23,301 bases of DNA from a virus. Position 1 is the stretch's first letter. Each line of letters opens with the position of its first letter. The DNA is taken from IMG/VR virus record IMGVR_UViG_3300036884_000010, positions 1 to 23,301 of that record. One strand, 5' to 3'. Below are positions 3,376-22,634 of the stretch, one piece after another. The translations under genes were made by a program, and so were the position numbers. The notes under the pieces are model-generated. The model did no database searches, was not told the origin of the DNA, and saw only the letters and a list, made by a program, of their open reading frames with translations.

Positions 3376-3437
3376 TGCAAATAGCAGGAGCAGCATGTTT
3401 ATTGTGGGTAATATATGACATATTGCAAGGTAATTAA
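3369..3437 (+). CDS. Membrane microprotein, 22 aa (copy B of duplicated module)
   Basis: This frame starts at ATG 3369 (a second ATG lies at 3375) in overlap with the preceding stop. It encodes a single hydrophobic helix ending LLWVIYDILQGN, matching the 2479 microprotein at 10 of the last 12-13 positions or by conservative change. The stop TAA is inside TTAACTG (3434-3440). The pairing of microprotein and leader at both places is the best evidence that it is a real gene. Confidence 0.55.
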   Translation: MLMQIAGAACLLWVIYDILQGN

Positions 3438-3473
3438 CTGTCTTGTATTGCCTTAACTGTTGACCGTTAACTA
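3434..3473 (+). repeat. TTAACTG leader array (19/14 spacing)
   Basis: TTAACTG at 3434 and 3453 and TTAACTA at 3467, followed by GAAAAGGAG before the ATG at 3494. The layout equals that at 2541-2580, and the bases between the first two copies (TCTTGTATTGCC here, CCGTGTATTGCC there) are also nearly the same. Confidence 0.8.
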
Positions 3474-3493
3474 TTGAAAAGGAGTGCCAAACC

Positions 3494-4427: not shown

Positions 4428-4484
4428 GCATTGCTACTTAACTGCCTTGACTTGCTACTTAACTGCCACTAATTACATTAACTG
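4417..4484 (+). repeat. TTAACTG array, four copies (21/21/19 spacing)
   Basis: Copies begin at 4417, 4438, 4459 and 4478. The last is followed directly by AAAGGGG, the ribosome-binding site of the gene at 4498. Two of the intervals contain GCTACTTAACTGCC, a local duplication. Confidence 0.85.
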
Positions 4485-4497
4485 AAAGGGGTTTACA

Positions 4498-5046
4498 ATG
4501 AGAACTGAAACGACAACAAGAAACCTTTATACTTTCGATGAACTGTCAGAAACGGCTAAAGAGAATGCTATAAATCAACTATCAAATATAAACGTAGATT
4601 ATAAATGGTGGGAAAGTGAATATGAGGACGCCGAACAAGTTGGAATAACTATCACAAGTTTTGACTTGGATAGAAATCGACACGCTTGTGCTGATATTCC
4701 AAATTGCCAGGAAACAGCCGAATTGATTTTAAGCAATCACGGTGAAGAATGCGAAACGTATAAAACAGCTAAAACTTTTCTTGACCAGTATTTGCCGATT
4801 AAAGAAAAACGCGATAAATGCGACGATATTTATTCACGTAACAAATACAGAAAATGTTTGTCAGATACACTTGACAGTTTAAAATCTGACTTGGAAACCT
4901 TGACAGAAGATTTTAAACAATCAATAACTGAAGATTATTCTATTATGCTTCAGCATCAATACGAATATCTCTGTTCAAGTGAAGCAATCGAAGAAACCAT
5001 AAAAGCTAATGAATACGAATTTGCTGAAGATGGAGAACTTGCTTAA
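4498..5046 (+). CDS. Conserved phage hypothetical protein, 182 aa (YTFDELSETAKE family)
   Basis: The N-terminus (about residues 10-31) reads LYTFDELSETAKENAINQL, followed by NVDYKWWESEYEDAEQVGI. I recall this start from many phage hypothetical proteins of about 150-200 residues in Gram-negative hosts, without assigned function. The rest is helical and strongly acidic, with predicted coiled-coil character around 108-150 (charged heptads). No catalytic motif is visible. Its TAA stop is embedded in TTAACTG at 5043, and a TTAACTG leader precedes it too. Confidence 0.75.
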   Translation: MRTETTTRNLYTFDELSETAKENAINQLSNINVDYKWWESEYEDAEQVGITITSFDLDRNRHACADIPNCQETAELILSNHGEECETYKTAKTFLDQYLPIKEKRDKCDDIYSRNKYRKCLSDTLDSLKSDLETLTEDFKQSITEDYSIMLQHQYEYLCSSEAIEETIKANEYEFAEDGELA

Positions 5047-5068
5047 CTGTCTTGTGTTACCTTAACTG
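5043..5068 (+). repeat. TTAACTG pair (19-base spacing)
   Basis: Copies begin at 5043 and 5062. The first contains the stop codon of the preceding gene (GCT TAA CTG). The 29 bases from 5043 differ at only a few positions from the leader at 3434, and an AAGAAAGGA ribosome-binding site follows. Confidence 0.8.
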
Positions 5069-5098
5069 TCACTTATTACCTACAAAGAAAGGAATGAT

Positions 5099-5470: not shown

Positions 5471-5787
5471 GCAAACTATCTAAGCTTGATACAACAATCC
5501 AAGAAAAAACAAAAGTAATATTTCGCAAATTTCCAGATGGTGAAATAATAGCTCTATTCCCTGAATTGCCAGGAACTAACAGTGTAACGAATTGTCTTAA
5601 CTACATGCACAACGGCCAGCATGGAAGCGGTAAAGCTACTTGCGAAGGTACAAAGCCAGTTGATAAAGACTGGAATGGAGCATTAAAGCGGGAGTTAACT
5701 GCAATCGGTTACAACTTAACTGTTGTTACTCGCTTTTCATATCAAATGGATCAAAAGAGAATTGCTTTAATACGTGGTACTAAATAA
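5467..5787 (+). CDS. Conserved phage hypothetical protein, 106 aa
   Basis: The core reads [20 protein letters not shown] (residues 17-36), then [13 protein letters not shown] near 43-55, and a C-terminal segment with a helix and a strand pair. I recall similar proteins in many bacterial and phage genomes (a motif of the type FPDGxVIALFP followed by C..Y.H.GQHG), annotated only as hypothetical. The His/Gly cluster is conserved in memory but no activity is known. TTAACTG occurs twice inside the coding sequence, at 5695 and 5716, 21 bases apart. Confidence 0.75.
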
Positions 5788-5815
5788 AACTCAAAACCAA
5801 AAGGAGAATTACAAA

Positions 5816-6421
5816 ATGAATATCAAAAATCGTTATACAAATGAAATTATTGCAGAAGGTGAAACGGTCAAACAAATAGCAATTAATAATAAAACTAACC
5901 TTCGCGGCGCTGACCTTCGCGGCGCTAACCTTTACGGCGCTAACCTTTACGGCGCTGACCTTTACGGCGCTGACCTTTACGGCGCTGACCTTCGCGGCGC
6001 TAACCTTTACGGCGCTGACCTTCGCGGCGCTGACCTTTACGGCGCTGACCTTTACGGCGCTGACCTTCGCGGCGCTGACCTTTACGGCGCTGACCTTTAC
6101 GGCGCTAACCTTCGCGGCGCTAACCTTTACGGCGCTGACCTTCGCGGCGCTAACCTTCGCGGCGCTAACCTTTACGGCGCTGACCTTCGCGGCGCTAAAT
6201 ATGGCAACAACGAACTTCTTATTAAATACTTAACTATCGGGCCTATTGGTTCGAGAAATGATTATCTACAAATATTCATAACTGACAAACAAAAACTTGT
6301 TAAAACTGGCTGTTTTTCAGGATCAATTGAAGAGCTTAAACGAGCTGTTAACAAAACTCATTCAGGCAATGACCACGCAAAACATTATAACTTAGCAATT
6401 GCTTTAATTGAGGTTATGTAG
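5816..6421 (+). CDS. Pentapeptide-repeat protein, 201 aa
   Basis: The start is ATG 5816 with AAAAGGAG upstream. A 27-residue leader with a [13 protein letters not shown] segment is followed by 20 uninterrupted (D/N)L(R/Y)GA units (about residues 28-127), which should fold as a right-handed quadrilateral beta-helix of about five coils. The C-terminal domain (about 130-201) includes [14 protein letters not shown] and KTGCFSG, a segment I have seen attached to other phage pentapeptide proteins. Related rods (Qnr, MfpA) mimic DNA and bind gyrase; whether this one does is unproven. The repeats are nearly identical in DNA. Confidence 0.9.
5897..6196 (+). repeat. 15-bp tandem repeat, 20 units
   Basis: Each unit is (G/A)ACCTT(CGC/TAC)GGCGCT. 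Leu, Gly and Ala use a single codon throughout (CTT, GGC, GCT), and only two places vary: GAC/AAC and CGC/TAC. Such uniformity shows recent expansion or homogenisation, and the array is far more GC-rich than the DNA around it. Confidence 0.95.
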
Positions 6422-6497: not shown

Positions 6498-7634
6498 ATG
6501 ATTAAGAAAAGTTACAGATATAGGATATATCCAAATCAAGCACAAATCGTTTTGCTAAACAAGCATTTCGGAGCTACCCGTATGATTTACAACTGGGGTT
6601 TGTCTGAAAAAACGCAATCTTATCAAGAAACCGGAACCTCGTTAACACGCTATCAACTTCAAGAAAGATTGCCTGAAATGAAACAAACTGACAAACCTTG
6701 GTTAGGAGAAATTAATTCTCAATCACTTCAAGCTTCCTTGCTTAATCTTGACCGAGCATTTTTAAACTTTTTTAAACATAACAGCAAATTTCCCAAATTT
6801 AAAAAGAAAAATCACAGACAATCGTTCCAAGTACCTCAAGGTGGTAAAATAGATTTTAAAACTGAAAAGTTATTTATACCAAAGTTTATTAGGGGTATTA
6901 AGTGCAAAGTTTCTAGAAAATTTGAAGGTGTTGCTAAAACATTCACAGTTTGCAAAACAACAACGGAAAAGTATTTTGTTTCTGTTATTGTGGAAACTCT
7001 TGACACAATCCAGAATAAAAAACCAATTTCGTTTGAAACAACCATTGGAATAGACGTAGGTATAAAGGATTTTTGCACACTATCAACAGGTGAGAAAGTT
7101 GAAAATCCCCGCTATCTGCGGAGCGAACTAGCTCGGTTGAAGATACTTCAGCGTAGAGCAAGTAAAAAGAAAAAAGGAAGTGCAAACCGAAAGAAAGCTG
7201 TAATGAAGGTCGCGTTGTTGCATGAAAAGATAGCAAACCAAAGAAAAGACTTCCTACACAAATTGACAGACAGGTTGACTAGCGAAAACCAAGTTAACAG
7301 CCTAGCCGTGGAAGATTTGAATATTGCAGGAATGTTGAAGAACCGCCGCCTTGCCCAGGCAATCTCGGATGTTTCTTGGAGCGAATTTTACCGACAACTT
7401 GAGTACAAGGCAGAGTGGAACGGCGTAAACCTTCTTAAGATAGGTAGGTTTGAACCGAGTAGTAAAATGTGTTCTTGTGGTGTAATAAACAGTCAATTAA
7501 AACTAAATGATCGTAAATGGACTTGTTCATCTTGCGGCCAAACTCACGACCGAGATATTCTAGCAGCAAATAACATCAAACGGTTTGCTTTAGCGAACGA
7601 TAATTTGAAATATCATCTGCGGTGCGCAGAGTAG
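6498..7634 (+). CDS. tnpB: RNA-guided endonuclease TnpB, 378 aa
   Basis: This is a full-length TnpB. The N-terminal helix-turn-helix-like region begins YRYRIYPNQAQ (residues 6-16); the RuvC active site is present with D186 in GIDVGIKDF, E272 in AVEDLNI and D353 in HDRDILAANNI; the zinc ribbon has C325, C327, C343 and C346. All catalytic residues are intact, so it should be active as an RNA-guided DNA nuclease using an omega RNA made from its 3' end. The start has no good ribosome-binding site, typical for the family. The length is normal. It is an insertion in a phage operon, with its guide expected from the right flank. Confidence 0.95.
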   Translation: MIKKSYRYRIYPNQAQIVLLNKHFGATRMIYNWGLSEKTQSYQETGTSLTRYQLQERLPEMKQTDKPWLGEINSQSLQASLLNLDRAFLNFFKHNSKFPKFKKKNHRQSFQVPQGGKIDFKTEKLFIPKFIRGIKCKVSRKFEGVAKTFTVCKTTTEKYFVSVIVETLDTIQNKKPISFETTIGIDVGIKDFCTLSTGEKVENPRYLRSELARLKILQRRASKKKKGSANRKKAVMKVALLHEKIANQRKDFLHKLTDRLTSENQVNSLAVEDLNIAGMLKNRRLAQAISDVSWSEFYRQLEYKAEWNGVNLLKIGRFEPSSKMCSCGVINSQLKLNDRKWTCSSCGQTHDRDILAANNIKRFALANDNLKYHLRCAE

Positions 7635-8227: not shown

Positions 8228-8278
8228 ATGCTAATCCTAATAATCATTCTGCTAGTACTTTTGTTTATATTACATTAA
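8228..8278 (+). CDS. Membrane microprotein, 16 aa
   Basis: A 16-residue frame, MLILIIILLVLLFILH, starts two bases after the preceding stop. It is one uninterrupted transmembrane-length hydrophobic helix. The stop TAA lies inside TTAACTG (8275), the same arrangement as the microproteins at 2479 and 3369. AAGGCGG upstream can serve as RBS. Short size means chance occurrence cannot be excluded, but the composition and position are suggestive. Confidence 0.45.
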   Translation: MLILIIILLVLLFILH

Positions 8279-8295
8279 CTGTCAACAGGTGAAAC

Positions 8296-18894: not shown

Positions 18895-19116
18895 ATGAAA
18901 GAATATGTAAAAGTTCCAGTTCTCGTAGGATTTAACACAGACATTCAAATAGGAACTCTCGAAGTTTTAAAAAGTAGCCTTCCGTCAACCCCTGAGTTTG
19001 TATTTACAATTGGGTATAAAACTGCCGAAGGTGACAAACCTTTTGAACTGAAAGCCGTTAGCATATCTACGGATACAGAGTTTCTTGCCTATCTGAAAGA
19101 GCAAGGTGCTGCGTGA
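18895..19116 (+). CDS. Hypothetical beta-rich protein, 73 aa
   Basis: ATG 18895 follows CAGGGGG. The product shows strands VKVPVLVGF, IQIGTLEV and EFVFTIGYKT, then a closing LAYLKEQG, so it reads as a small beta sandwich or barrel. Its stop overlaps the GTG start of the exonuclease gene (GTGA at 19113), suggesting coupled translation with that enzyme. It could be an exonuclease partner. No family recognised. Confidence 0.65.
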   Translation: MKEYVKVPVLVGFNTDIQIGTLEVLKSSLPSTPEFVFTIGYKTAEGDKPFELKAVSISTDTEFLAYLKEQGAA

Positions 19117-20126
19117 TTGACCTCACCACTCCAGGCGCACTAGCGCAACTGTCGCGGCAGATTAAGGACGAAATTGACGCAAGTTGTATTTGCAAGGGCG
19201 ATGAAGGGCCAAGAAGTCATTTAGGAGCTTCTGAAATAGGCCATAGTTGTAGCAAGTATTTGTGCTTTAAATTCAGACACGCTATTTATAAAAAATTTGA
19301 TGGTCGAATGTACAGATTGCTAAACAGAGGTCATTTTGAAGAACCTCGTTCGCTTGGTTATCTTGAAGCTATTGATTGTAAAGTCAGAATGTTTGAAAAG
19401 GTCTTGCTTTATCATCCTGAAAGTGAAAGTTATTTTTACGGCAACATTGAAGAAGATAACCCTGACGGTCTTGTTGAAGAAGTTGAAGGTATTCCGTATC
19501 ACGAAGATAAAGCTAAAGAACTTGGAATTTGGCTTGAAAAGGGAAAGAGGCAGCTCCGTATATCAGCTTGTAAGGGTCATTTTGGAGGTTCACTTGATGC
19601 TGAAATCGAACTGCCTACAAGATATGGTATTGTGGGTAGAATGTTGTGCGAGCTGAAAACTCAGGGCAACGGTAAGCAGGGCAACAAAATAAGTAACTTT
19701 GCAAAGTTGGTTAAAGATGGCGTTAAGCTTTACAAGCCTGTTCATTGGGCGCAGCAATGTATATACGGCTATAAGCGCGGTCTTGATTATAGTTTGTATA
19801 TGTCAACTTGCAAGAATGACGACGAACTTCATATTGAAGTTATAAAATTAGATCATTTTTTGGGGGCTTCTCTTGAGAGAAAGGCCGAACTAATCATATT
19901 TGCAGAAACACCTCCTTCGGGTGTAAGTATGAGTCCTGCCTTCTTCGAGTGCCAGTGGTGCGATGCTTGCGATGTATGCCATAATGGAAAAGAAGTTTTA
20001 AAGAACTGCCGTAGTTGTAAAATGTGTGAACCTGTTGAAGATGCGAATTGGTATTGCCACAAGTGGAACTCTGTAGTTCCCAAAGAACATATTGCAGCTT
20101 GTCCTGAATGGATTTCTTACTTTTAG
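19113..20126 (+). CDS. PD-(D/E)XK exonuclease (Cas4/RecB-like), 337 aa
   Basis: The GTG at 19113 overlaps the preceding stop. Active-site candidates are D162 in GGSLDAEIE, and E180 with K182 in CELKTQ, matching the D...ExK core, with HFEE (74-77) as the upstream acid. The C-terminal 60 residues contain a dense cysteine set: CQWCDACDVC, CRSCKMC, and single Cys further on, consistent with a zinc or 4Fe-4S cluster as in Cas4/AddB nucleases. It would resect DNA ends for annealing by the Sak4-type ATPase and DUF669 protein. Which polarity it has is not known. Confidence 0.82.
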   Translation: MIDLTTPGALAQLSRQIKDEIDASCICKGDEGPRSHLGASEIGHSCSKYLCFKFRHAIYKKFDGRMYRLLNRGHFEEPRSLGYLEAIDCKVRMFEKVLLYHPESESYFYGNIEEDNPDGLVEEVEGIPYHEDKAKELGIWLEKGKRQLRISACKGHFGGSLDAEIELPTRYGIVGRMLCELKTQGNGKQGNKISNFAKLVKDGVKLYKPVHWAQQCIYGYKRGLDYSLYMSTCKNDDELHIEVIKLDHFLGASLERKAELIIFAETPPSGVSMSPAFFECQWCDACDVCHNGKEVLKNCRSCKMCEPVEDANWYCHKWNSVVPKEHIAACPEWISYF

Positions 20127-20129
20127 TTC

Positions 20130-20158
20130 TTGACTTCACAGGTTTTTTGTGAGATACT
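20130..20158 (+). promoter_or_regulatory. Sigma70-like promoter with an inverted repeat in the spacer
   Basis: TTGACT (20130-20135), 17 bases, GATACT (20153-20158), just after the exonuclease stop. TCACA (20136-20140) and TGTGA (20148-20152) form an inverted repeat inside the spacer, a possible operator. It would drive the structured region at 20184-20270 and the endonuclease VII gene. Confidence 0.5.
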
Positions 20159-20183
20159 TCCTCCTACATAAATTAAACGTGTC

Positions 20184-20270
20184 GAGCAGGACGCGTTACG
20201 CTGGTTACGGTTGCTTCGGCTTCCGTTGCAGTAAAGCCTCATTCGGACTGCTCTCCGTTTGAGGCTTTAC
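20184..20270 (+). ncRNA. Candidate structured leader or small RNA upstream of endonuclease VII
   Basis: A UUCG-capped hairpin is formed by ACGG-TT-GC (20207-20214) and GC-TT-CCGT (20219-20226). A second, 11-base-pair hairpin follows. GAGCAG (20184-20189) is complementary to CTGCTC (20248-20253) in the loop of the second hairpin, which would make a pseudoknot. Together with the promoter at 20130 this could be a free small RNA of about 110 bases or an attenuated 5' leader. No known class is recognised. Confidence 0.45.
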
Positions 20271-20279
20271 TTATTTATT
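20231..20279 (+). terminator. 11-bp hairpin followed by T-rich stretch (terminator or attenuator)
   Basis: GTAAAGCCTCA (20231-20241) is fully complementary to TGAGGCTTTAC (20260-20270), with an 18-base loop, and TTATTTATT follows. The stem and T-rich tail suit a Rho-independent terminator, though the tail is broken by A. It sits 12-22 bases upstream of ATG 20292, so it would need read-through or opening for the next gene to be made. Confidence 0.6.
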
Positions 20280-20291
20280 CAGGAGATTTTA

Positions 20292-20972
20292 ATGTACGAA
20301 ATTGAATCAAATATACCAATGCCGGAGGTAATAAAAATGCCTAGAAAATTAAAAGGTCGTTATATCAAACCTCCTGCTGAAAATTTTGATAGCAAAGGAT
20401 TGCCTACTTCTAAAAAAGAAGCTGAACTAATAGGGAGTACAACTTATATTACAGGGAATCCTTGTGGAAGAGGTCATATTAGCGAACGAAATACTAAAGG
20501 TGGCGCTTGTATCGCTTGCATCCGAATAGCGAGAGATTCAAACCCCGACCATAGAAATCGCTCTGCTAAAAATGCAGAATTAGCAAGAACAGCGAAAGCG
20601 ACGGGTATAACAACATTCGTACCTGAAAAACCTTGCAAGTTAGGTCACAACCTTAGATTTATAGCTTCAAATAATTGTGTCGAATGTTCCAATATAATGC
20701 GTGAGAAACATAAGCTGGCAACCAAACATTATAGAATTAAAAAAATATATGGTTTGGATAAAGACGCTTATTTAAAAATGGTAAACGATCAAAACAGCAG
20801 TTGTTTGTTATGCGGAACTTATGTTGAAGATTGCTACAATTTGCACATAGATCATTGCCACGATACCAATAAGGTTAGAGGTTTGCTTTGCGGTAAATGC
20901 AATCAAGGTATAGGTTTGTTAAAACATTCCCCTGACTTACTTCGCAAAGCCGCTGCGTATTGCGAGGCTTAA
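20292..20972 (+). CDS. Recombination endonuclease VII-like nuclease, 226 aa
   Basis: The C-terminal half holds the endonuclease VII/HNH signature: CLLCG (about 178-182), HIDHCHDTNKVRGLLCGKCNQG (about 192-213). The preceding part repeats a smaller module twice: NPCGRGHI..GGACIACIR and KPCKLGHN..NNCVECSN, probably zinc-binding, giving DNA-branch or substrate contact. Enzymes of this family resolve Holliday junctions and branched DNA before packaging. Two starts are possible: ATG 20292 after AGGAG, or ATG 20337 after GGAGG; both have good sites. It is immediately upstream of the helicase. Confidence 0.85.
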   Translation: MYEIESNIPMPEVIKMPRKLKGRYIKPPAENFDSKGLPTSKKEAELIGSTTYITGNPCGRGHISERNTKGGACIACIRIARDSNPDHRNRSAKNAELARTAKATGITTFVPEKPCKLGHNLRFIASNNCVECSNIMREKHKLATKHYRIKKIYGLDKDAYLKMVNDQNSSCLLCGTYVEDCYNLHIDHCHDTNKVRGLLCGKCNQGIGLLKHSPDLLRKAAAYCEA

Positions 20973-22634
20973 ATGAACTTTCATCCGATAGTTCAAAACA
21001 GTTTGCGCGACTTCCAGCTTGAGGGAATTTCAGCATTATATGACTACTTTGCTACTACAGACGGCAATCCGTTATTATGTTACCCAACTGGTACGGGCAA
21101 GTCCTACGTTAACGCAGGTATCGCAATAAACGTACTTACTGAGTTTCCAAACCAACGTATAATTATGCTCACTCATGTTAAAAATCTTATTGAACAAAAT
21201 CTTGAGAAGTTGCTCAAACTTTGGCCTAATGCACCTGTCGGTATATATTCAGCAGGACTTAATCAGCGCGACACGGCACACCCGTTAATCTTCGGCGGCG
21301 TTGCTTCGGTTGTAAACAACGTTGAGGCATTCGGGCATCGTGATCTTTGTATTATTGACGAGGCCCACCTAGTTTCCCCACAAGAAACTTCAATGTATCA
21401 AGACATTATAAAGCGCCTACGCGTTATAAATCCAATGCTTAAAATAATCGGCTTGACGGCTACCGCGTTTCGTTGTGGGCAAGGCATGTTGACTGAAGGC
21501 GATAACCCTATATTTGACGACATTTGTTTTGATCTTACCGGCGTTCATCCGTTCAATCGCTTTATTGCAGAAGGTTATCTTGCACCATTAATACCAAAGC
21601 AAACAAGAGTTGAAGTTGACACTTCTTCGGTAAAGATTATCAACGGAGATTTTGCCAAGAACCAGCTTGACGAAGTTACTGAAAAAATACTTTATGAAGC
21701 TTTAAAGGAAACCGTCGAACGAGGCTATGATAGAAACTGTTGGCTTGTATTTTGCTCAGGAATCAAAACAGCAAATCACGCCGCTGAGATACTACAAAGT
21801 TTTGGAATTTCCGCTGCTGCAATACATTCTAAACTTTCAGACGCAGAGTGCGACAAACGCTTTGAAGCTTTCAAACGCGGTGAGTTACGGGCTATTTGCG
21901 GTAACAATAAATTTACAACAGGATTTGACTTTGCGCCGATAGATTTGATAGCAATGTTGCGCTCAACCGCTTCGCCTGGATTATGGGTGCAAATGCTTGG
22001 ACGAGGGACAAGACCTTATGACTTTAATAATCCTGAAAAGTATGTAAAAGGTTTTGAATATGTAAAACGTAATTGCTTGGTGTTGGACTACGCAGGAAAT
22101 TGCCGTAGGCTCGGCCCCATAAACGACGTAGTTTTACCGCGTAAGAAGGGTGACAAAACAGGCGATGCTCCAATTAAGATTTGCGACGCATGTGGTCTTT
22201 ACAATCACGCCTCAGCGCGACATTGCGGAGGCAAACCATACCCAACTGATGAAGGTTGTGGTGCAGAGTTCTTATTTAAAACTAAACTTGTGCGAACTGC
22301 CGGAACTGACGTACTAATTGCAGGCGACGAACCCGTTGTAGAAAGTTTTGAAGTTACTCGCGTAATCTATCACAAACATAATAAAGTAGGCTCCATGCCT
22401 AGCATGAAAGTAAGTTATTATTGCGGGCTACAAAGATTCAGCGAGTATGTATGCCTTCAGCACTTAGGAATGGCTAAAACTCGCGCACGTAGTTGGTGGC
22501 AACAGCGCCACGCGTCACCACCACCTGAAACTGTAGACGAAGCGTTACTTTATTCAAGTCAGTTAAGATGTCCTAAAAGAATCAGCGTTGTGACTTCCAG
22601 CAAGTTTCCTGAAATTGTCAGCACAGAATGGTAA
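20973..22634 (+). CDS. Superfamily II DNA/RNA helicase, 553 aa
   Basis: Motifs in order: RDFQLEGI (Q-like, 12-19), Walker A YPTGTGKS (about 37-44), IIDEAHLVS (DEAH box, near 129-137), GLTATAFR (motif III), LVFCSGIK, then the C-terminal ATP-binding FTTGFDFAPIDLIAML and QMLGRGTRP (motif VI with arginine finger). The C-terminal 150 residues have CDACG, CGG, CGAE cysteines, a probable zinc binding site. It is RecG/UvsW-like in layout and probably remodels recombination or replication intermediates. ATG 20973 begins right after the endonuclease stop. Confidence 0.92.
   Translation: MNFHPIVQNSLRDFQLEGISALYDYFATTDGNPLLCYPTGTGKSYVNAGIAINVLTEFPNQRIIMLTHVKNLIEQNLEKLLKLWPNAPVGIYSAGLNQRDTAHPLIFGGVASVVNNVEAFGHRDLCIIDEAHLVSPQETSMYQDIIKRLRVINPMLKIIGLTATAFRCGQGMLTEGDNPIFDDICFDLTGVHPFNRFIAEGYLAPLIPKQTRVEVDTSSVKIINGDFAKNQLDEVTEKILYEALKETVERGYDRNCWLVFCSGIKTANHAAEILQSFGISAAAIHSKLSDAECDKRFEAFKRGELRAICGNNKFTTGFDFAPIDLIAMLRSTASPGLWVQMLGRGTRPYDFNNPEKYVKGFEYVKRNCLVLDYAGNCRRLGPINDVVLPRKKGDKTGDAPIKICDACGLYNHASARHCGGKPYPTDEGCGAEFLFKTKLVRTAGTDVLIAGDEPVVESFEVTRVIYHKHNKVGSMPSMKVSYYCGLQRFSEYVCLQHLGMAKTRARSWWQQRHASPPPETVDEALLYSSQLRCPKRISVVTSSKFPEIVSTEW

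Follow-up and report, generated by a model that had tools for sequence, protein, structure and literature searches.

Organization of the leader locus

In an uncultured phage, a gap of 165 bases separates a Cas4-domain exonuclease gene (5′) from an endonuclease VII-type gene (3′), which raises the question of whether a structured RNA is produced from this site and, if so, which genes it governs. The window, i.e. the whole stretch of DNA analyzed, is a complete IMG/VR virus record (23,301 bases). Among isolates, the closest counterparts of its exonuclease (approximately 42-44% identity) are from Pseudomonas, Stenotrophomonas and Xanthomonas phages. The early region of the window contains TTAACTG-carrying repeats of up to 84 nt and 86% identity (834-933, 2503-2586, 3396-3479, 4432-4498, 5043-5082 and 8265-8284). 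A gene encoding an IS605-type TnpB (6498-7634; Pfam OrfB_IS605 and Cas12f1-like_TNB) and one encoding a protein built from 15-nt repeats with a pentapeptide pattern (5774-6421) are also present.

The initial annotation of the gap described a promoter-like pair with an inverted repeat in its spacer, a UUCG-capped hairpin and a terminator-like hairpin with a T-rich tail, and all of these parts are found in the sequence where it had placed them (Table 1). It also pointed out that GAGCAG is complementary to the loop of the terminator-like hairpin (H3), which we confirmed. What it missed is that GAGCAG constitutes an entire loop of 6 nt, closed by the 8-bp stem of a further hairpin, H1, with the sequence AACGTGTC(GAGCAG)GACGCGTT; CTGCTC, the exact reverse complement, is the entire 6-nt loop of H3. 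Because GAGCAG is itself a complete loop, the H1-H3 pairing would be loop to loop, i.e. a kissing contact. H3 is made up of 11 bp, a TT/TT internal loop, 4 bp and the loop. A simple terminator scan did not list this hairpin, probably because of its internal loop.

Table 1. Positions of the leader parts and neighboring genes in the window.
Feature	Position	Strand	Basis
Cas4-domain exonuclease gene, upstream context	19113-20126	+	PHROG 1990, E 8.4e-75
Sigma-70-like promoter TTGACT-17-GATACT (hexamers 20130-20135 and 20153-20158, 17-nt spacer)	20130-20158	+	Sequence; kept in place in 6/6 copies
Spacer inverted repeat TCACA/TGTGA	20136-20140 / 20148-20152		
ACATAAA, inferred RNA 5′ end (+1 near 20166)	20166-20172	+	Identical 7 bases in 5/6 copies, ACATGAA in L261
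Hairpin H1, 8 bp, loop GAGCAG 20184-20189	20176-20197	+	Predicted fold; both-side changes at 6/8 pairs
Hairpin H2, UUCG cap	20207-20226	+	Predicted fold; both-side changes at 6/8 pairs; loop not conserved
Terminator-like hairpin H3, loop CTGCTC 20248-20253, predicted to kiss the H1 loop	20231-20270	+	Predicted fold; kissing-helix covariation
T-rich tail TTATTTATT after H3	20271-20279	+	Sequence; 6-10 T per 14 nt in each of 6 copies
Shine-Dalgarno (SD) AGGAG	20281-20285	+	Sequence; purine-rich SD after H3 in 6/6 copies
Endonuclease VII-type gene behind leader	20292-20972	+	Pfam PF02945, E 1.1e-18
Helicase gene, next in operon	20973-22634	+	Pfam PF04851 / PHROG 16

The predicted 113-nt RNA (20166-20278) has a folding energy of -47.5 kcal/mol (z -6.8), and none of 200 shuffled sequences folded as well. 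Over both strands, the window contains a single case of two strong hairpins whose 6-nt loops are fully complementary, and none was seen in 40 dinucleotide-shuffled windows; the same criterion returned 2 uninspected matches in 3.37 million strand-bases of other loci. Two observations would fit a chance arrangement, or a palindrome acting at the DNA level without any RNA function: the promoter match alone does not exceed chance (5 found versus 5.2 expected), and the fold predicted for the minus strand over 20160-20285 is almost as good (z -6.2). Against such an origin, the paired loops belong to two separate hairpins, not to one palindrome.

Conservation of the leader in related phages

The exonuclease survey comprised 85 related loci, some of which represent the same record twice. 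A helicase gene lies downstream in 80 of them, with a gap of at most 27 nt in 54 loci and an insert in 26. The insert of L147 (contig G001, 62 kb; exonuclease 55% identical) has the layout of the window copy, i.e. TTGACA, 17 nt, TACTAT, ACATAAA, H1 with the loop GGGCAT, H2, H3 with the loop ATGCCCC, then AGGGAGG and GTG as the start codon. This copy was recognized by eye after a fold scan had flagged its H3 stem. Phage 73, which came up together with the relative in L147, is classified as Septimatrevirus. The junction between the exonuclease and helicase genes is a hotspot for insertions: 26 of the 80 loci have additional genes there or, in the case of L020 (5891-7207), an apparent helicase intein. 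In the same slot of a close relative (L021, 3862-3948), inspection by eye revealed a promoter-like TTGACT-17-TAGTAT within a long inverted repeat, CATATCTTTCCTTGA...TCAAGGAAAGATATG.

R1, a covariance model derived solely from the window sequence, scored the L147 copy at 23 bits (E 6.6e-4) and had a second match in contig G001 (L226; 39.2 bits, E 1.7e-7), placed at 6166-6275 between the genes for the small (terS) and large (terL) terminase subunits. A DNA pattern that fixed only the first loop base (the open-loop pattern) led to a fourth copy (L250, 1867-1982), again between terS and terL, on a contig other than G001. A terL protein search then yielded seven loci, six of them close relatives and one (L262) distant. 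Model R2, based on the window and L226, detected copies in L261 (28.1 bits) and L259 (25.9 bits) with its filters switched off, and missed both with default filters. In L259 the leader is located approximately 500 nt after terS and is followed by a GIY-YIG-like gene and terL. In L261 the preceding gene encodes a phosphoesterase, no terS was recognized, and an HNH-like gene lies between the leader and terL (both endonuclease-like genes were named by eye). The leader thus occurs in four of the six close terL loci; L257 and L258 are without it. The terS-terL gap of L258 (1568-1650) holds a different structured stretch, noticed by eye, in which the helices AGCGGC/GCCGCT and AGGTATCCG/CGGATACCT are interleaved and would form an H-type pseudoknot. 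The terL gene of L226 (6283-9180) is split by a long insert that has a LAGLIDADG-like match and is apparently an intein.

Altogether six copies were collected, one in the window and five in related uncultured phages; two follow an exonuclease gene (window, L147) and four stand upstream of terL. All six share the same order of parts: promoter-like site, H1, H2, H3, T-rich tail, SD and gene. In each copy TTGAC lies 35-38 nt upstream of ACATAAA (or its L261 variant), the -10 hexamer has 4/6 matches at a spacing of 16-17, the hairpin stem of H3 is present, and a purine-rich SD follows, with the start codon 15-25 nt past H3. The 14 nt that run from within the 3′ arm of H3 into the tail contain 6-10 T residues, interrupted by other bases, and the weakest tracts are those of L226 and L250. 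Each of the six RNAs is predicted to fold with a z score of -4.8 to -7.0, unequaled by any of 200 shuffles per copy. The H2 loops vary, and neither the spacer inverted repeat nor the UUCG tetraloop was seen in the sequences of the five other copies; a role for either element is not supported.

Covariation of the paired loops

The loops of H1 and H3 are perfectly complementary in every one of the six copies despite their changed letters: GAGCAG/CTGCTC in the window, GGGCAT/ATGCCC in L147, GGATAG/CTATCC in both L226 and L250, CTGCCA/TGGCAG in L259 and TGGCAG/CTGCCA in L261. The L261 pair consists of the L259 letters with the partners swapped. The number of distinct loop sets is five instead of six because L226 and L250 have one in common, and this shared set accounts for the only match between the H1 loop of one copy and the H3 loop of another. 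Loop complementarity played no part in finding or confirming the five relatives with R1, R2 and the open-loop pattern; covariance models do not use pseudoknots.

A MAFFT alignment of the copies misplaced H3, and the alignment was therefore laid out by hand on the structure. In this alignment, whose construction favors the stems in pair counts, 92.6% of cells are paired (70.3% in shuffles) and both-side changes occur at 25 of the 36 pairs (shuffle mean 11.9); the observed values were reached by none of 500 shuffles. For the kissing helix, where the count rests solely on which bases form the loops, all 36 cells are paired and both-side changes are seen at 6/6 pairs, which are included in the 25. 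Versions of the alignment that had been slid out of register were only 33-43% paired. Compensating stem changes in relatives, to which the initial annotation had looked for corroboration, are therefore present. Loop pairs that are exact and yet change in five relatives, together with this number of both-side changes, speak strongly against a chance arrangement or a DNA palindrome; we regard that explanation, the least probable of all considered, as disproved by the covariation, provided that the alignment is correct.

When the RNAs were cut at the H3 loop, pairing of this loop with that of H1 was predicted in three of the six copies, and no alternative antiterminator helix common to the six copies was found.

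Searches for further copies

Sequence searches with the gap gave no match, either in phages (601-base query) or in plasmids. At E values up to 10, the phage search returned 35 records with stretches of at most 28 bases among the matches listed, which were taken as chance. A match in phage DTL (33 bases, 88%) lies inside a gene. An exact 14-base pattern was found in at least 120 stretches, and on checking these for an upstream GAGCAG or for outer pairing none was convincing. A pattern requiring the letters of both loops found nothing, as is to be expected in hindsight because the loops covary. Comparison by eye of the regions preceding 17 endonuclease VII relatives did not reveal a copy.

Loose kissing-loop descriptors gave many chance matches (477 in 1.68 Mb of loci; 57 with a promoter filter, among which the window and L147 copies recurred), and inspection by eye left only the window and L147. 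A stricter descriptor recovered five of the six copies, with 3 matches in 4.57 million strand-bases outside the member loci; it missed L226, in which H3 contains internal mismatches. The open-loop pattern matched seven viral stretches, i.e. the two copies of G001, the new copy L250 and four others (L248, L249, L251 and L252) that were judged chance on inspection. Its sole match in genome contigs, L255, was likewise attributed to chance, with no H3 within the 221 bases read.

Run over 64 sources with default filters, R2 detected the window, L226 and L147 (duplicated as L228); L164/L245 (E 0.73) was rejected by inspection. Over 40 whole records R2 matched two records, and in one of them it missed the L147 copy. 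Model R3, applied to 40 records at E values up to 1, matched six, five of which hold all six copies; the sixth (G034, E 0.15) and additional matches in G043 and G044 that overlapped or lay on the opposite strand were judged chance. In a further 11 sources, including 5 isolate phages, R3 had no match with an E value below 1.3, and no convincing copy was found.

Predicted role of the leader in gene expression

The promoter-like site, the terminator-like end and the loop pairing support the discrete structured RNA of about 110 nt suggested by the initial annotation, and this conserved folded leader probably controls the amount of the following operon that is made. We favor, at a probability of roughly 60%, a cis-acting 5′ leader in which the kissing contact governs read-through past H3 into the following genes. 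From the order of the parts we infer that host RNA polymerase would start near ACATAAA and that the nascent RNA would fold successively into H1, H2 and H3, the last of these resembling an intrinsic terminator whose whole loop could pair with the whole loop of H1, transcribed approximately 60 nt earlier. The kissing helix would serve as the regulatory handle: as it could form while the 3′ arm of H3 is still to be transcribed, it would meet the terminator hairpin during the formation of the latter and would shift termination in one direction or the other. The fraction of polymerases passing H3 would set the expression of the downstream operon, i.e. endonuclease VII and helicase in the window and terL in the relatives. 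The proposal that the leader is used late in infection gains from the location of four copies upstream of terL.

Action in cis is suggested by the fixed placement between promoter and gene, and control of read-through by kissing is favored because the contact can precede the 3′ arm of H3 and because the RNAs cut at the H3 loop pair their loops in three of six cases. Points that weigh against the leader reading are the interrupted, modest T tracts, the failure to find a shared antiterminator pairing, the omission of H3 by the simple terminator scan, the small number of copies, with two of them sharing their loops and none found in the isolate phages tried, and the bias of the hand-made alignment towards stems.

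A free-standing small RNA gene offers another explanation: transcription would normally stop at H3, and the resulting RNA of 105-115 nt would act in trans. This would agree with the very stable fold and with the possession, in all six copies, of an own promoter-like site and a terminator-like end. The SD and start codon, however, always follow directly on the same strand, at the short distance from H3 given above, and action on the next gene therefore fits better. Moreover, the loops are occupied by internal pairing and differ among the copies, so that no common trans target is visible. We consider such a trans-acting RNA improbable.

More tentatively, and with less confidence than an even chance, the copies may represent a new class of cis-regulatory phage RNA: a hairpin of the leader would capture the loop of the intrinsic terminator hairpin on the same nascent transcript, and this contact between RNA loops alone would determine whether transcription ends in a short RNA or continues into late or replication genes. 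As the loop pairs of different operons do not match, there would then be no cross-talk among the copies. Phage leaders that steer RNA polymerase, such as the nut, put and Q sites, have taught much about termination. A covarying RNA in which the terminator-like hairpin is one half of a kissing pair asks whether intramolecular kissing makes or breaks intrinsic termination, and the naturally swapped loop pair of L259 and L261, along with the other loop sets, provides ready-made compensatory variants. The leader may also reveal how these uncultured siphophages time their terminase and replication operons without a recognizable Q protein.

Relationship with endonuclease genes

The initial annotation suggested, as an alternative to a discrete RNA, a leader that decides on endonuclease VII expression. 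Its position upstream of that gene stands, while a special link with endonuclease VII is not supported, since only one of the six copies precedes such a gene. Three copies nevertheless lie directly in front of endonuclease-like genes (endonuclease VII in the window and the genes of L259 and L261 named by eye; the L259 protein has a NUMOD3 match just below the cut-off, the L261 protein has no Pfam hit), as would be expected if the leader were part of a homing-endonuclease cassette and moved with its gene. The other three copies have no endonuclease behind them: terL follows immediately in L226 and L250, and a 39-aa ORF in L147. On this distribution the cassette reading is scarcely credible, and the leader seems instead to belong to the operon, with endonuclease-like genes having settled behind it in three cases. 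The endonuclease-like proteins of the window (20292-20340) and L261 (1650-1700), otherwise different, have similar N-termini, MYEIESNIPMPEV and MYEILNVPIPEV.

A local promoter and an RNA structure precede several phage T4 endonuclease genes (I-TevI, mobE and segB), according to PMC2988022. Following the I-TevI logic described there, RNA reading through from the exonuclease gene would hide the SD, and RNA from the local promoter would leave it open. The mean pairing of the SD core in the window is consistent with this, being 0.83 for an RNA starting 40 nt upstream versus 0.26 for one with the local start (compare the fold of 20160-20285), and the window copy may behave in this manner. A clear change from low to high SD pairing was, however, predicted in one copy of six, i.e. 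that of the window; in L261 the SD is hidden in both forms, and the other four show no change or a partial one. SD sequestration was therefore rejected as a general mechanism. As a translational regulator of the I-TevI type would also leave the kissing loops unexplained, we find this account very unlikely.

Comparison with known regulatory systems

The window had no match in Rfam 15 at the gathering score. At E values up to 10, all matches of the window, L261 and L250 copies were far under gathering, e.g. PyrG_leader at 26.9 of 65 and, for the L261 copy, COG2827 at 20.5 versus 49.1. The literature searched, a partial collection, held no description of such an element.

Attenuators usually have their terminator hairpin placed shortly before the SD, and a classical one would have an alternative antiterminator pairing. 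Like intrinsic-terminator attenuators and transcriptional riboswitches, the RNA described here is a 5′ leader with a terminator-like hairpin just before the SD; unlike them, it has no conserved antiterminator that we could see, and its terminator loop forms one half of a loop-loop helix. The late leaders of lambda-type phages (pR′-tR′ with Q) comprise a promoter, a short leader and a terminator before the late genes. A similar succession of promoter-like site, short leader and terminator-like end is found here, four times upstream of terL, although to our knowledge the lambda leader is not known for a kissing pair. Q proteins of families PF06530 and PF03589 were detected in none of nine records (controls positive), these records being fragments in which unknown Q types would escape detection; PF06323 was also absent from the nine, in a search that gave no control signal.

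With the T4 hairpins, the window shares an endonuclease gene fronted by a local promoter-like site and an RNA structure. It differs from them in that hiding of the SD is clear in one copy of six and the element stands before terL as well.

The put RNAs of phage HK022 (putL and putR) are approximately 70 nt long and composed of two stem-loops, are located near phage transcript starts, occur twice in HK022 and require no phage proteins, as stated in PMC9378689. The leader resembles them in being a phage cis RNA of stem-loops at the predicted transcript start, directly after a promoter-like site in all six copies, and in occurring more than once per genome (contig G001 has two copies, the other records one each). 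A put-like role, in which the RNA would bind RNA polymerase, as put does through the beta′ zinc-binding domain, stay on it and make it ignore distant terminators, H3 merely looking like one, is accordingly the main rival to the read-through leader. It would suit the position of the element at the very start of the transcript and in front of terL, its use by two operons of one phage (L147 and L226 in G001), and the lack of Q-type antiterminators of families PF06530 and PF03589 in the nine records. The leader is nevertheless unlike put in its size (approximately 105 nt), its three hairpins, the 6-bp kissing helix and the T-rich tail, and a terminator-like hairpin immediately before the SD in 6/6 copies would be unexpected for a put site. 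Classification as put was thus rejected on size and hairpin number, and a put-like function is unlikely, although we rate it above the other alternatives to read-through control.
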